From NCBI GenBank assembly GCA_009789175.1, contig CP046866.1:2728001-2792000 (forward strand): a DNA stretch of 64,000 bases. The letters run 5' to 3'. The translations under genes and the position numbers were made by a program. The notes below the pieces were generated by a model. That model searched no databases. It had not been told where the DNA came from and saw only the letters and a list, made by a program, of their open reading frames with translations. Positions 13,937 through 61,672 of this stretch are shown one piece after another; the first letter of the stretch is position 1; each line of letters starts with the position of its first letter. This stretch comes from Salinibaculum litoreum (lineage in GTDB: Archaea > Halobacteriota > Halobacteria > Halobacteriales > Haloarculaceae).

Positions 13937-15448
13937 CTACTCTGTCAACCGCTGGACCGTCTCGTTGATGTCTTTGACTTTCGCGGTCTGTTGTTCGTTG
14001 GCTGCGGCGACCGATTCGGCCTCGTCTGCCATCCGGTCGGCCTGTTCGACGAGGTCGTCGACCATGCTTGCGACCTCTTCGGTACTCGCTGCCTGGTCAT
14101 CGGTCGCTTCGGAGACCTCCTGAATTCCCCGAGAGGTCTCCTTTATCGCGTCGACGATGTCCCGTAGTGTCGACATTGCCTCCTCTACCTCGTCTATCCC
14201 GCGGTCGACTTCCCGGGTCGTCTCATCGAGGCTGGTGACCGTTTCTTCGGTATCGGCCTGAATCTCCTCGACCATCCGCTCGATGTCGGCGGCGTGGTCC
14301 TGTGACTCCTCGGCGAGGCTTTTGACCTCGTCGGCGACGACGGCAAAGCCCTCGCCAGCCTCACCGGCACGTGCGGCCTCGATGGAGGCGTTCAACGCGA
14401 GCATGTTGGTCTGTTCGGCGATGTCGTTGATGACGTCGACCACCTCGTCGATCTCGTCGATGCGCTCCTAGAGCGTACTGACATCGTCGGCGACTGCTGT
14501 CGAGGAGTCGTTGACCTGCTCCATCACGTCGATGGCCTCGGTCGCAGCGCTTTGCCCCTCCTCTGCAAGTTCTTCGGCGCGCTCGCTCGTCGTTGCCACC
14601 TCGTCGGCGGTGGCGGCGATCTCCTCGACGGTGGCGCTCATGGTCGACACTTCGTCGGCAACGTCGCCCATCGCGTCGGCCTGCTCGCGGGCCAGGCCGC
14701 TTATCTCTTCGGTGCTCTCTGCGACATCGTCCGCCGTCGTCTGACACTCCCCGACTGCGCGCTCGACTTCGCTGGCGACCCGTGCCTGCCTGTCGAGTTC
14801 CGTTTCGAGGTTCTGGCTGTAGGAATGGATGTAGGTGTCCATCGCCACCTGCTGGTCGAGGTTCAGTAGCTTCAGTGCCGACAGTGACTGCTCGACAACT
14901 TCGTCGATGGCTTCCTCCGGGGAGAGTGCGCCGTCTTCGGTCGAACTTCTCTCCGTCCTGACAGCCGCCCCGCCATCGGTCGATACGAGTCGCTCCTTGA
15001 CATCGTCAGCAATCGCCTCGATGATGCCCCGGTAGTAGACACTGTAGGCCCCGAGGTAGATTTTCGGCCCGAGGTCGAGCATATCGTGAATCTTTCCGAT
15101 GCGGGCTCGACTCTCGAAGTACTGCTGGTCGTACGTGCCAGTTCCCAGATCGAGTAAATACTGTCGCTGAGTCTCTTTGAGTTGGTCGACGGATTTCGTC
15201 GAATCGCCGAATATCTCCCGCGTTTCGTCGTACTCCTCCAGGTGGTCATAGAAGTCATCGACCAGGTCGTCTGCGATGTCTTCGAGCACGCCCGAGAGCC
15301 CGTCGAGACACTGCCTGTCGCCTCCGTCAAAGCCAGTGAAATCCTTTCGCCAGCGTATCTCCTCGCTGTCGATACCGATGTCATCGGTGAGCTGTGACCC
15401 GCTTACTTCCTGCCTGTTCTCTGCCGTTATCTTCTTTTCAGATGCCAT
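13937..15448 (-). pseudogene. HemAT-type globin-coupled aerotaxis transducer with an in-frame amber
   Basis: 503 codons in one frame from the ATG at 15448, interrupted by TAG at 14468-14470. N-terminal globin sensor (residues 30-185, with ARIGKIHDMLDLG holding the likely proximal His), then coiled coil, then the MCP signalling domain with the hairpin [21 protein letters not shown] after the stop. The adjacent paralogue has CAG (Gln) at the amber position (DRLQSRVEE against STL*ERIDE). The frame is otherwise intact on both sides. Either a recent nonsense mutation, a sequencing error or readthrough. Without readthrough the product (326 aa) lacks the CheA-contacting tip. Confidence 0.88.
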
Positions 15449-15834: not shown

Positions 15835-17403
15835 TCAGTCCTCGGTTAGCCGGCGGACGGCATCGTCTATCTCCTGAATCCGGGCCTTTTGCTGTTCGTT
15901 GGCAGCGGCGACGGACTGGACTTCGTCGGCGACCTCCTCGGCCTTCTCGACGAGGTCGTCGAGCATCGAGGCCACCTCCTCGGTGGAGGCCGCCTGGTCG
16001 TCGGTCGCACCTGCGACCTCCGCGATACCTTCCCGGGTCTCGCTGACGGCGTCGACGATGTCCGCCAGACTCGTCAGCGTCTCTTCGACCTGGTCGATGC
16101 CGCGGTCGACCCGGTCGGTCGCGGACGCCAGGTTCTCGACGGTGTCCTCCGTGTCGGTCTGTATCTCCTCGACCATCCGCTCGATGTCGGCGGCGTGGTC
16201 CTGTGACTCCTCGGCGAGACTTTTGACCTCGTCGGCGACGACGGCAAAGCCCTCGCCGGCCTCGCCAGCGCGGGCGGCCTCGATGGAGGCGTTCAAGGCG
16301 AGCATGTTGGTCTGTTCGGCGATGTCGTTGATGACGTCGACCACCTCGTCGATTTCCTCGACGCGGCTCTGGAGGCGGTCGACATCGCTTGCTACCTCCT
16401 CGACGGCTGTCCCGACGCCGTTCATCGCGTCGGTCGCGGCGTCGGCGGACTCCTGTCCGTCTTCGGCGAGGCGTTCGGCCTCCTCGCTGGTCGTCTCGAC
16501 TTCGTCGGCTGTGGCGGCGATTTCCTCGACGGTGGCGCTCATGTTCGACACTTCGTCGGTCACCTCGCGGATGCGGGCGGTCTGGTCGTCGGCGAGCCCT
16601 GAGACCCGCTCGGCGCTGTCCGCCACCTGTGTCGCCGAGTCGTTGAGGTCCTCGATGGGCTCCTCGATGTCGCCCTCGACTTCGGCCATGAGCCGCTCGC
16701 GCTCGGCGATTGTCTCGGACAGTTCCTGACTGTAGGCGTGGATGTAGGTGTCAGCGACCACCTGCATGTCGAGGTTGATAATCCGAAGCACGGCCAGCAC
16801 GTCCCGTAGTCCGTCCTCGATTTCTGCCGACACCGTCTCTCGCAAGTCCGCACCGTCGAGTGTCAGGCTCTGTCCGCCTTCGGCTGCCGCGCCGCCGTCG
16901 GCGGCGGCGTTCGCCTCCGAGGCGATTGCCTCGACTACGTTCTCCTCGATGCGCTCACGGAGGATGTTGAAGATGAGGTCGTAGTAGACGCCGTACTGGC
17001 CGATGTAGTGTTTCATCGGCATCTCGAGCAGATTGTGTATTTTGCCGATTCGCGCCCGGTCCCGGAAGTACTCCATCCCGTACTCGCCGCTGCCAAGCGT
17101 CACGAGATACGCCCGCTGGGTCTCCTTGAGCATCTCGACGCTTTTGTCCGACCGGCCGATGACCTCGCTCGTCTGGGCGTGACCTGTCAGGTTATCGTAA
17201 AAATCGTCGGCGATATTGTCCGCATACTGCTCGAACAGGTCCGCCATCGACGCGAGTCGCCGAGCATCCTCGTCGGTGAATCCGATAAACTCCTTTCGCC
17301 ACTCGATTTCGTCGCTATCGATATCACATTCTTCGAGGAGGGCGTCGGCATCCACGAGGTGGTTCAGTCCACCTTGACCGAACTTATCTGCATACGTCGC
17401 CAT
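15835..17403 (-). CDS. HemAT-type globin-coupled aerotaxis transducer
   Basis: 522 aa from the ATG at 17403 (MATYADKFGQGG); the upstream in-frame ATG lies in the divergent hisA promoter region. Soluble oxygen sensor for aerotaxis. Globin domain about residues 40-200 with RARIGKIHNLLEMPMKHYI around the proximal His, a linker helix, then the methylation helices and the conserved signalling tip [18 protein letters not shown] near residue 385. It has no membrane segment. It signals to CheA/CheW. The next gene downstream is an amber-interrupted paralogue with a nearly identical signalling tip. Confidence 0.92.
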   Translation of the reverse strand: MATYADKFGQGGLNHLVDADALLEECDIDSDEIEWRKEFIGFTDEDARRLASMADLFEQYADNIADDFYDNLTGHAQTSEVIGRSDKSVEMLKETQRAYLVTLGSGEYGMEYFRDRARIGKIHNLLEMPMKHYIGQYGVYYDLIFNILRERIEENVVEAIASEANAAADGGAAAEGGQSLTLDGADLRETVSAEIEDGLRDVLAVLRIINLDMQVVADTYIHAYSQELSETIAERERLMAEVEGDIEEPIEDLNDSATQVADSAERVSGLADDQTARIREVTDEVSNMSATVEEIAATADEVETTSEEAERLAEDGQESADAATDAMNGVGTAVEEVASDVDRLQSRVEEIDEVVDVINDIAEQTNMLALNASIEAARAGEAGEGFAVVADEVKSLAEESQDHAADIERMVEEIQTDTEDTVENLASATDRVDRGIDQVEETLTSLADIVDAVSETREGIAEVAGATDDQAASTEEVASMLDDLVEKAEEVADEVQSVAAANEQQKARIQEIDDAVRRLTED

Positions 17404-17561
17404 AACTACCTTCTCGCGACGGGCCACATAAACTCGTTTATAAATGCGAACACATGTTCGGAGCAATCCACATATTTCCGGCATCCTCGGCTGGTGGCCG
17501 TGGCGTGGTCGTCCGGCTGTGGACCAACACCCTTTCTATCTCGCTGACCGCACTGGCAGGT

Positions 17562-34679: not shown

Positions 34680-37367
34680 TCAGTCCGTCATTGCGGCGGT
34701 GAGCCGCTGGCGGAAATCGTAGGGCTGTGGTCGCTCGCTTGGGGTCGTCGCCATCGCGTCGCCGATGGCGCTGTCCACTCCGTCCGGCAGTGATGGGTCC
34801 CTGACGGTCGGTGGTGTCAGGTCGCCGTTGACGATGGCACTGCGTGGGTCGTCGGCATCGATGAACGGCGGGTGTCCGGTCAGGACTCGGTAGGCGACGG
34901 CCCCGAGCTGGTAGGTGTCGGTTTCAGCCCCGGCGCTGTCGCCGGTCAGTTGTTCCGGTGCCGTGTACGGCGTAATCCAGTCGGCCCCCACCACCTGCGC
35001 GACGGCTTGCCGGACGCCCCAGCCTGCCAGTGTCACGACGGGGTTGGCCGACAGGTCCTCGCCGATGAACGCCACCGACGGGGAGATGCTCCCGTGGACG
35101 AGGTTGTACATGCCGGCGGTACGGACTGCCTCCGCGAGGTGTGCAATCGCATCGACGCGAGCGTCCCGCTCTAACGACGAGAGGATATCGTTCAGCTGTC
35201 CGGTTCCGGGGTCGAACGCCACCCAGGGGCGGGGCTCGTCGCCGCTGTCGTAGACGGTCGCGACGTGGGTGTTCTTGCTGATGCCCTCCCACTCACGGGC
35301 CGCCGTCCCGAACGCCTCGACGGCGTCGGCTGTCCCGGTGTGGTCGGGTGCCAGCGCGTAGATGCAGGTCTGTTTGCTGTCGTCACCGTCTGGGTATCGC
35401 CCGCTGTAGACGTGGACCGGTCCCGCCGTGTCGACGGGACGGAGCCGCTCGACTCGGTCACACTTCTGCAGGAACGCTCCGGCCGGCGATTTCGGCGACG
35501 GCGGCTCGTACTCGGCTGTCGATTCGGTTGCCGGGCTTTCGGCGACCGTCTCGGACGCTTCCGGCCTGTCGACGGGTTCCGCTTCGCCGCCGGACTGGCT
35601 GCCCCCGTCGTCTACAGACCCGTCGCCGGCACTGTCGGACGAGTCAGGGGAGTCCGCAGTCGACTCGCCGGTCCCGTCGTCTTCGTCGTCGTGCTCGTTT
35701 CTGACGTGTTTCCAGACAGCCAGCGCGGCGATGGTCGAACTCACGGCGACTACGCCACCCAGCACTGTCGTGTTCGGCGAGTCCGCCGTGCTTGTCTCGC
35801 GGGCTGTGGTGGCCGCTGTCTCCGGGAACCGTGTCGTGGCTTGTTCTGTTGTGTGATCGACAACCGTCGGCGTCACGGTGGGTGTGGAGACGGGCGTCGT
35901 CACGGTGGGTGTGGAGACGGGCGTCGTCACTGCGGCCACCGCAACTGTCTGCGTTGCCGTGTACCGTGTCCCGTCGGTCGACACGCGCAACTGCACGGTG
36001 TACTCCCCTTGCTCGGCGAAGCTGTGAGTCACCCGCTGGCCGGTGGCCGTGAAGGCGGCGTCGGTCCCGAACGACCACTCGTAGGTGGCGTTCTCGGCAG
36101 TCTGTACCGACCCCTCGAACGTGACCGTCTCCCCCACGAGGGCTCCGTCGGGCCCTTCGATTTCTGGGGTGAGAGTCCCTTCGGTCAGTGCGTACACGGA
36201 CCCGTCGTTGCTCCCGACGTAGACGGTGCCGTCCACCACGGCAGGTGACGACGCCACACTGTCGCCAGTCTGGAAGCGCCACTGCTCGGCCCCGTCCGCT
36301 GTCGAGAGGGCGTACACGTTCCCGTCGTAGCTCCCGACGTAGACAGTGCCGTCGACCACGACCGGGGACGAGACCACAGCACCGTCGGTCTGGAAGCGCC
36401 ACTGTTCGGCCCCGTCCGCTGTCGAGAGGGCATAGAGGCGTCCCCTGCTACTCCCGACGTAGACCGTGTCGCCAACGACCGCTGGAGACGAGGCCACACG
36501 CCCGAGAGTCTAGACGCGCCACCGTTCGGTTCCATCCGCTGCCGATACTGCGTACACGATGCCCGCGTCGAGTGAATTGTCGCCGACGTAGACGGTACCG
36601 TCGACGACTGCCGGCGATGAGGCGATACCGGACTCGGCCCGAAACCGCCACTGTTCGGTGCCGTCTGTCGCCGAGAGCGCGTAGACGTTTGTGTCGAAAC
36701 TCCCGACGTAGACTGTTCCGTTGACCACTGCCGGTGACGTGGTTACGCCCGACATGGGTCGGGTCTGGAACCGCCACCGTTCGGTGCCGTCTGCCGCCGA
36801 AAGCGCGTAGACGGACCTGTCACCACCCCCGACGTAGACGGTGCCGCCGACGACTGCCGGCGGTGATGTCACGAACTCACTGGTTTGAGTGTCCCACTGC
36901 ACCGTGCCGTCGCCAGCGTCCAGTGCGAACACGGCCCCGCCCTGGCTTCCGACGGTACCACTCCCGACGTAGACAGTACCGCCGACGACTGCGGGTGATG
37001 ACACCACTCCAGCGTCGGTCTGAACGCGCCACCGCTCGGTGCCATCCGTCGCCGAGAGGGCGTATACGTTCCCGTCGTAACTCCCGACGTAGACGGTGTC
37101 GCCGATGACTGCCGGCGACGAGGCAACTTCTCCCTCGGTCCGGTAGCGCCACTCTCGGGAGATGGGTGCGTCCGGCCCGGTTTCGTCGGGGTTGTACCCG
37201 GTGTTCGCCACGTTGACGCAGTACATCGGGTGCCCGGCGGCATCGACCTGAGGCTGGTGCCATTGTCGAACCCGGCCACGACTCTCACTCGAACTGATGA
37301 GGCCCAGACCACTCAGTAGTCCACCCTGCCGGAGAAATTCCCGACGCGAGAACGTCTCGATGGGCAT
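34680..37367 (-). pseudogene. Tat-exported PQQ-propeller / PKD / TM / pseudokinase protein with an in-frame amber
   Basis: 895 codons in one frame from the ATG at 37367, interrupted by TAG at 36510-36512. Order: Tat signal (FSRREFLRQGG), about nine PQQ-type propeller repeats (each near SSPAVVGDTVYVGSYDGNVY), a PKD domain (about residues 420-490), a Thr-rich linker, one membrane helix (VLGGVVAVSSTIAALAVWKHV), then a cytoplasmic kinase-like domain. The amber stands where other repeats have Gln (WRVQT or WRFQT). In the kinase part HRD is replaced by HGS, DFG by GWG, while TAPEQ remains, so it is probably a pseudokinase. It links an external sensor to a cytoplasmic scaffold. Confidence 0.88.
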
Positions 37368-58108: not shown

Positions 58109-58130
58109 AAAACGAAAGCGGTTTATTGTA

Positions 58131-58144
58131 TTAGGCTAGCCTAA
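58131..58144. promoter_or_regulatory. Iron box 3 (proximal, first binding-protein gene)
   Basis: TTAGGCTAGCCTAA is a perfect 14-bp palindrome. It lies five nt before the ATG at 58150, with TATA-like TTTATTG (58122-58128) at leaderless distance. Confidence 0.9.
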
Positions 58145-58149
58145 ACTGT

Positions 58150-61519: not shown

Positions 61520-61655
61520 ACGTTCCGGATGAGGAGCACCCCTTCGGTGCTTCCCGCGTCGCTGTCGACCGGCCGTTGCTCTGATTGCTCCACACCGGCT
61601 GCCTCTCTGACTGGTCTGTCGTCGGTCTCCCGCAACCGAAGCCGTTATATAATTT

Positions 61656-61669
61656 TTAGGCTAGCCTAA
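61656..61669. promoter_or_regulatory. Iron box 5 (second binding-protein gene)
   Basis: TTAGGCTAGCCTAA, identical to box 3 and a perfect palindrome. It is three nt before the ATG at 61673, with TATA-like TTATATAA (61645-61652) at leaderless distance. Confidence 0.9.
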
Positions 61670-61672
61670 AAC

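Follow-up and report, generated by a model that had tools for sequence, protein, structure and literature searches.

In Bacillus subtilis HemAT (PDB 1or4) and in Htr10/HemAT of Halobacterium salinarum, a protoglobin domain is followed by an MCP signalling domain. The tip of an MCP binds CheW and CheA. A gene with the same order of domains and an aligned histidine was examined in a 64,000-nucleotide window of the Salinibaculum litoreum genome (contig CP046866.1, positions 2,728,001 to 2,792,000). The genome also holds a CheA gene with an open frame. The window sits on a 3.3-Mb contig, and the genome is 3.73 Mb. Unlike the described proteins, the examined gene has an amber codon separating its two domains; the neighbouring copy is intact. 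The features of the two genes, in window coordinates, are as follows.

13937..15448, minus strand: HemAT-type transducer gene (protoglobin and MCP signalling domain), interrupted by a single amber codon
14819..15367, minus strand: protoglobin domain, codons 28-210 (PF11563, E 6.7e-36)
15086..15088, minus strand: His121, counterpart in the alignment of residue 123 (the His of 'IH') in the 1or4 chain
14468..14470, minus strand: internal TAG, codon 327, in the context CTC TAG GAG
14054..14461, minus strand: MCP signalling domain, codons 330-465, entirely past the stop (PF00015, E 9.8e-48)
15835..17484, minus strand: intact neighbouring HemAT-type transducer, 549 aa, with CAG at the aligned codon

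The original prediction had placed an amber codon at 14468-14470 in an otherwise intact frame of 503 codons without naming a strand. The codon is real and lies on the minus strand. Read from 15448 to 13937, the frame opens with ATG and runs for 326 sense codons, including the start, before it meets TAG. Another 176 sense codons follow, up to a terminal codon that is also TAG. The total of 502 sense codons and one internal TAG matches the 503 codons first counted. The plus-strand reading of the same interval contains several stops. The in-frame 176-codon signalling domain, with its MCPsignal match at E 9.8e-48, rules out a chance open reading frame past the stop. The two Pfam matches also bear out the assignment to HemAT. 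The N-terminal half resembles B. subtilis HemAT, although the match to 1or4 is distant (E 3.9e-11), and we take the aligned His121 to be the heme-binding proximal histidine. The domain limits fall before and after the stop, so the truncated product would keep the heme domain and lose the signalling domain, as had been proposed; the MCP domain is encoded in frame but past the TAG, and the two domains should not be part of the same translated product. When the genome was searched with the neighbour's protein, 17 MCP places were found. The amber-cut gene has one TAG and the other 16 have no stop.

The residue at the amber position was described earlier as a conserved Gln. An alignment of 86 rows was examined, comprising the cut gene, the neighbour and 84 others, with two fragments included (L076 and L103). 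An apparent frameshift in L103, from Natronomonas aquatica, proved to be a run of N and no lesion. In the 85 other rows the aligned residue is Q in 36, R in 26, E in 7, A in 6, H in 5, K in 2, S in 1 and a gap in 2. The neighbour has CAG (Gln), as had been noted, and Gln is found in 5/6 of the other members of the nearest clade (L010, L011, L042, L045 and L092; L016 has A). Gln is therefore usual among the closest relatives, but it is not strictly conserved; family-wide it is just the commonest residue (36/85). The seven-row clade holding the cut gene has an SH-aLRT of 93 in a quick tree whose careful search is unfinished. In the nearest relative, Salinibaculum sp. KK48, the orthologue is intact: it is 504 residues long, has CAG at the site and is 65% identical to the cut gene over 502 residues. 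Among the ORFs in 80 kb around the KK48 HemAT, only that gene, with its antisense shadow, matched the window. Together these residues suggest that the ancestral codon was likely CAG.

A single C-to-T change, as first proposed, is enough to produce the amber. Of the 32 stop-making transitions possible in the cut gene, 23 are CAG-to-TAG, so amber-for-Gln lesions are expected to recur by plain mutation. To see how often such lesions occur, the KK48 protein was searched against 392 genomes, and 145 gave a match with E no higher than 1e-100. Among the 150 matches listed, 148 have no stop and two have one TAG each: the cut gene and the HemAT of Haloarcula salina YGHS18 (genome G246; L076, around 6330). 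The stop in the cut gene is thus a disabling change relative to intact relatives. In H. salina the TAG interrupts the globin ahead of the aligned His; at this site the nine Haloarcula relatives examined have Gln, encoded by CAG in all six for which the codon was checked. The two genes resemble each other in having one TAG where relatives have CAG, with the frame open afterwards. They differ in the codon affected and in the branch of HemAT to which they belong, so the H. salina amber arose independently. A search of literature titles for a nonsense HemAT in haloarchaea found none, although 'hemat' partly matched longer words, which blunted the search.

If the stop were old, the sequence beyond it should have decayed. 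For the two halves of the cut gene, leave-one-out profile scores were computed over 84 rows, with the fragments L076 and L103 dropped and the neighbour included. The downstream half ranks 1/84, with 265.0 bits against a median of 238.9, and the upstream half ranks 3/84 (471.8 bits, median 438.3). None of the 22 near-invariant downstream columns (>=95% identity) is broken in the cut gene; the mean over rows is 0.56. Codons 332-397 contain 154.7 nonsynonymous and 43.3 synonymous sites; here all 9 differences between the cut gene and the neighbour are synonymous, which bounds neutral divergence since the loss at about 1.9%. Profile and substitution counts alike show little or no decay besides the lesion, and an old pseudogene is ruled out. 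The undamaged downstream half suggests that the full-length protein was under selection until very recently, and that the stop is very young, miscalled or read through. The age bound is soft because the profile contains a neighbour that shares tip DNA and because conversion could have renewed the tip. The lack of decay fits a base-call error or read-through equally well, and to that extent it counts against a nonsense allele.

The tip DNA itself was compared with that of other receptors.

14258..14455, minus strand: signalling-tip tract, codons 332-397, a putative gene-conversion tract whose DNA nearly matches that of the neighbouring HemAT and of a PAS-type MCP

The tract starts about five codons past the stop. 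Its identity is 95.9% with the neighbour and 95.3% with L003, a PAS-type MCP encoded in the same genome (PF00989 and PF00015; matching stretch about 1860-2050). The next best among 107 matches reach 88-89%. This gap makes gene conversion of the tract likely, and conversion may have renewed it. The remainder of these receptors is far more diverged than the tip DNA. In the N-terminal part, the cut gene and its neighbour share about half of their residues. The quick, unfinished tree places them in different branches, so a recent tandem duplication of the two is unsupported.

A second amber-cut gene was found in the window, 22 kb away.

37367->34680, minus strand: PQQ-propeller/PKD gene, amber-cut at 36512..36510

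PQQ-propeller repeats flank this TAG, which has the context GTC TAG ACT, and are followed by PKD and a weak kinase match. Judged by eye, the sister repeats mostly have Gln or Arg at the amber position. A search with the downstream half for a close intact relative found none: at 1e-40 it matched 0/57 other genomes, and within its own genome it gave a single match, at 40%, which lacks the upstream repeats. This second gene keeps alive a shared cause for both ambers, either miscalls or the reading of amber as sense.

The first of these causes, an assembly or base-call error at a true CAG in an intact gene, is consistent with the absence of any decay in the downstream half and with the second amber-cut gene nearby. 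It also draws on the sequence context. A CAG at codon 327 would sit in CCAGG, and one Dcm-type methyltransferase gene is present in the genome. CCAGG is the Dcm motif; when methylated it accounts for about 70% of nanopore consensus errors in one Klebsiella benchmark (PMC6591954). The earlier suggestion of a Dcm-like context thus holds for the restored codon. The Dcm idea beyond that is weak: no Vsr gene was found in the genome, and CTAGG is not enriched. Vsr-type repair was accordingly set aside as a cause. Codon and motif usage was scanned in 324 kb, comprising the window and thirteen 20-kb stretches (L152-L164). CTAGG occurs 29 times against 36.4 expected and its complement CCTAG 37 times against 35.3, with none of the excess that systematic miscalling of CCAGG would leave, although an error at a single site remains compatible with these counts. 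Furthermore, the second amber lies outside a CCWGG context, and stops are rare in large families of the same genome (0/49 ABC-ATPase matches and 1/17 MCP places). We consider a miscall unlikely but by no means negligible.

The same 324 kb show other biases in short motifs. GATC is strongly avoided (463 seen, 1657.6 expected), as is CTAG (184 seen, 405 expected), and CCWGG is mildly avoided (338 and 307 against 448.9 and 421.2 expected). Two near-identical palindromes around CTAG, ATTAGGCTAGCCTAAA and TTTAGGCTAGCCTAAA, lie 3.5 kb apart in the window at 58130-58145 and 61655-61670, where several direct repeats, diverged to 70-78% identity, also occur.

The second shared cause is that the amber is read through or suppressed, by natural insertion of Gln or by other recoding, and that full-length HemAT is still made. 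An archaeal precedent is the pyrrolysine recoding of methanogens, which likewise places an in-frame TAG in an otherwise conserved archaeal gene. That recoding involves an active-site residue, whereas Gln is expected at the HemAT amber, and the present gene is no methylamine methyltransferase. PylS (TIGR02367) had 0 matches in the genome, while the control, Methanosarcina acetivorans, scored over the cut-off. Pyrrolysine recoding was therefore rejected. All 56 RF00005 tRNA-like matches in the genome were run through ARAGORN, with introns allowed for the leftovers, and no CUA anticodon was seen among them; intron-bearing tRNAs can be missed in this search, and the tRNA list is incomplete since tRNA-Trp was also unrecovered. 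One 66-base match (L147 101-166, G000:C1:3254769-3254834) was left uncalled by ARAGORN, contains no CTA and is probably a degenerate tRNA. Elsewhere in the genome, about 3 kb (L105, G000:C1:746200-749400) hold 13 tRNA genes, or 14 with introns allowed. The species are mostly duplicates of tRNAs found at other places in the genome, and the cluster looks like a mobile-element tRNA array.

The use of TAG as a terminator was then considered. The 49 longest non-overlapping ORFs of the window end in TAG (13), TGA (32) or TAA (4). Three of the 13 TAG-ended ORFs come from the broken genes (both pieces of the cut HemAT and the leading piece of the PQQ gene), and TAG also ends recognised genes for a helicase, an AhpC/TSA (peroxiredoxin-like) protein and a histidine kinase. 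In a looser coding scan of the 324 kb, a coding-like frame was found on both sides of 11/59 TAG, 11/117 TGA and 0/44 TAA codons, a distribution that by itself would favour read-through. However, 8 of the 11 TAG cases have a start codon within 4 codons and represent abutting genes, and two more (L155:9582 and L157:10430) are flanked by frames without a Pfam match. A strict best-of-six-frames scan gave 12 cases, 5 TAG and 7 TGA; without a start within 7 codons there remain one TAG, the cut HemAT, and two TGA. The strict scan is not fully sensitive, as it missed the PQQ gene at 36510. TAG is thus not found inside many frames and is in use as a terminator, and its general reassignment was rejected.

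Read-through would agree with the undamaged downstream half and with the presence of two amber-cut genes in one 64-kb window plus an amber in a Haloarcula HemAT, all at positions with Gln, or Gln or Arg, in relatives or sister repeats. Against it stand the missing PylS, the lack of a CUA anticodon within the reach of the tRNA search, the outcome of the stricter scan and the TAG that ends the cut HemAT itself. Continued synthesis of full-length HemAT by this route appears very unlikely. We rate slightly lower a more specific form, in which the lineage inserts Gln at some UAG codons usefully often, perhaps by a near-cognate tRNA-Gln. Amber-for-Gln alleles such as those of HemAT, the PQQ protein and H. 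salina HemAT would then be tolerated and would yield both a sensor-only fragment and the full-length protein.

We also wondered whether the pieces could be useful as they are. The original prediction suggested that a truncated product could be a decoy. On this reading the globin half would be retained on purpose, as an oxygen-binding decoy or a poison partner for intact HemAT. The sensor domain is whole, with its His aligned with position 123 of B. subtilis HemAT, and an intact HemAT adjoins. However, the truncation is common to no examined relative, the matches listed being stop-free in 148/150 cases, and the only other broken gene stops inside the globin ahead of the aligned His. A retained decoy should by now show decay past the stop, and none is seen. 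Mixed dimers of the two HemATs are not to be assumed, given N-terminal parts only about half identical and the different branches of the tree. A decoy role for the globin fragment is conceivable, but it found no positive support and we give it less credence than either form of read-through. Lower still stands a split gene, in which the downstream half is made apart by internal initiation and works with the upstream half. A GTG at codon 336, 8 sense codons past the stop, does open a 168-residue frame. By eye, no GGAGG-like element precedes it at the usual distance. The neighbour also has GTG at that codon, which argues that it is no adaptation.

An ordinary recent mutation that broke the gene, or a single misread base, is the most likely cause, rather than a new reading of the code or a purposeful decoy. 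Between these, the cut gene is best read as a recent C-to-T nonsense allele of a haloarchaeal HemAT in which the receptor is disabled, to which we assign a probability of roughly three in four from the sequence comparisons above. A C-to-T transition would have changed a CAG early in the first signalling helix to TAG. Translation would end after 326 residues, leaving the heme-globin sensor attached to a portion of the coiled coil. The fragment would lack the tip (codons 345-372) that contacts CheA and CheW, and the receptor would be silent; a fragment missing the CheW/CheA-binding tip should not signal. On the nonsense reading we infer that the base call is correct, that the mutation is young and that the fragment has no role. 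The cell would presumably have lost one of two oxygen receptors, and the neighbouring HemAT probably makes up for some or all of the oxygen sensing that went with it.

If the locus is as it seems, the importance of the lesion is small: a halophile has lost the use of one of its two HemAT-type receptors, which is at most a caution for annotation and for the choice of this strain in aerotaxis work. Were the full-length protein found, it would point to efficient amber read-through in an archaeon with no detected pyrrolysine system. The tips of three receptors are near-identical in DNA while their sensors differ, which suggests homogenisation of the kinase-contact region by gene conversion.
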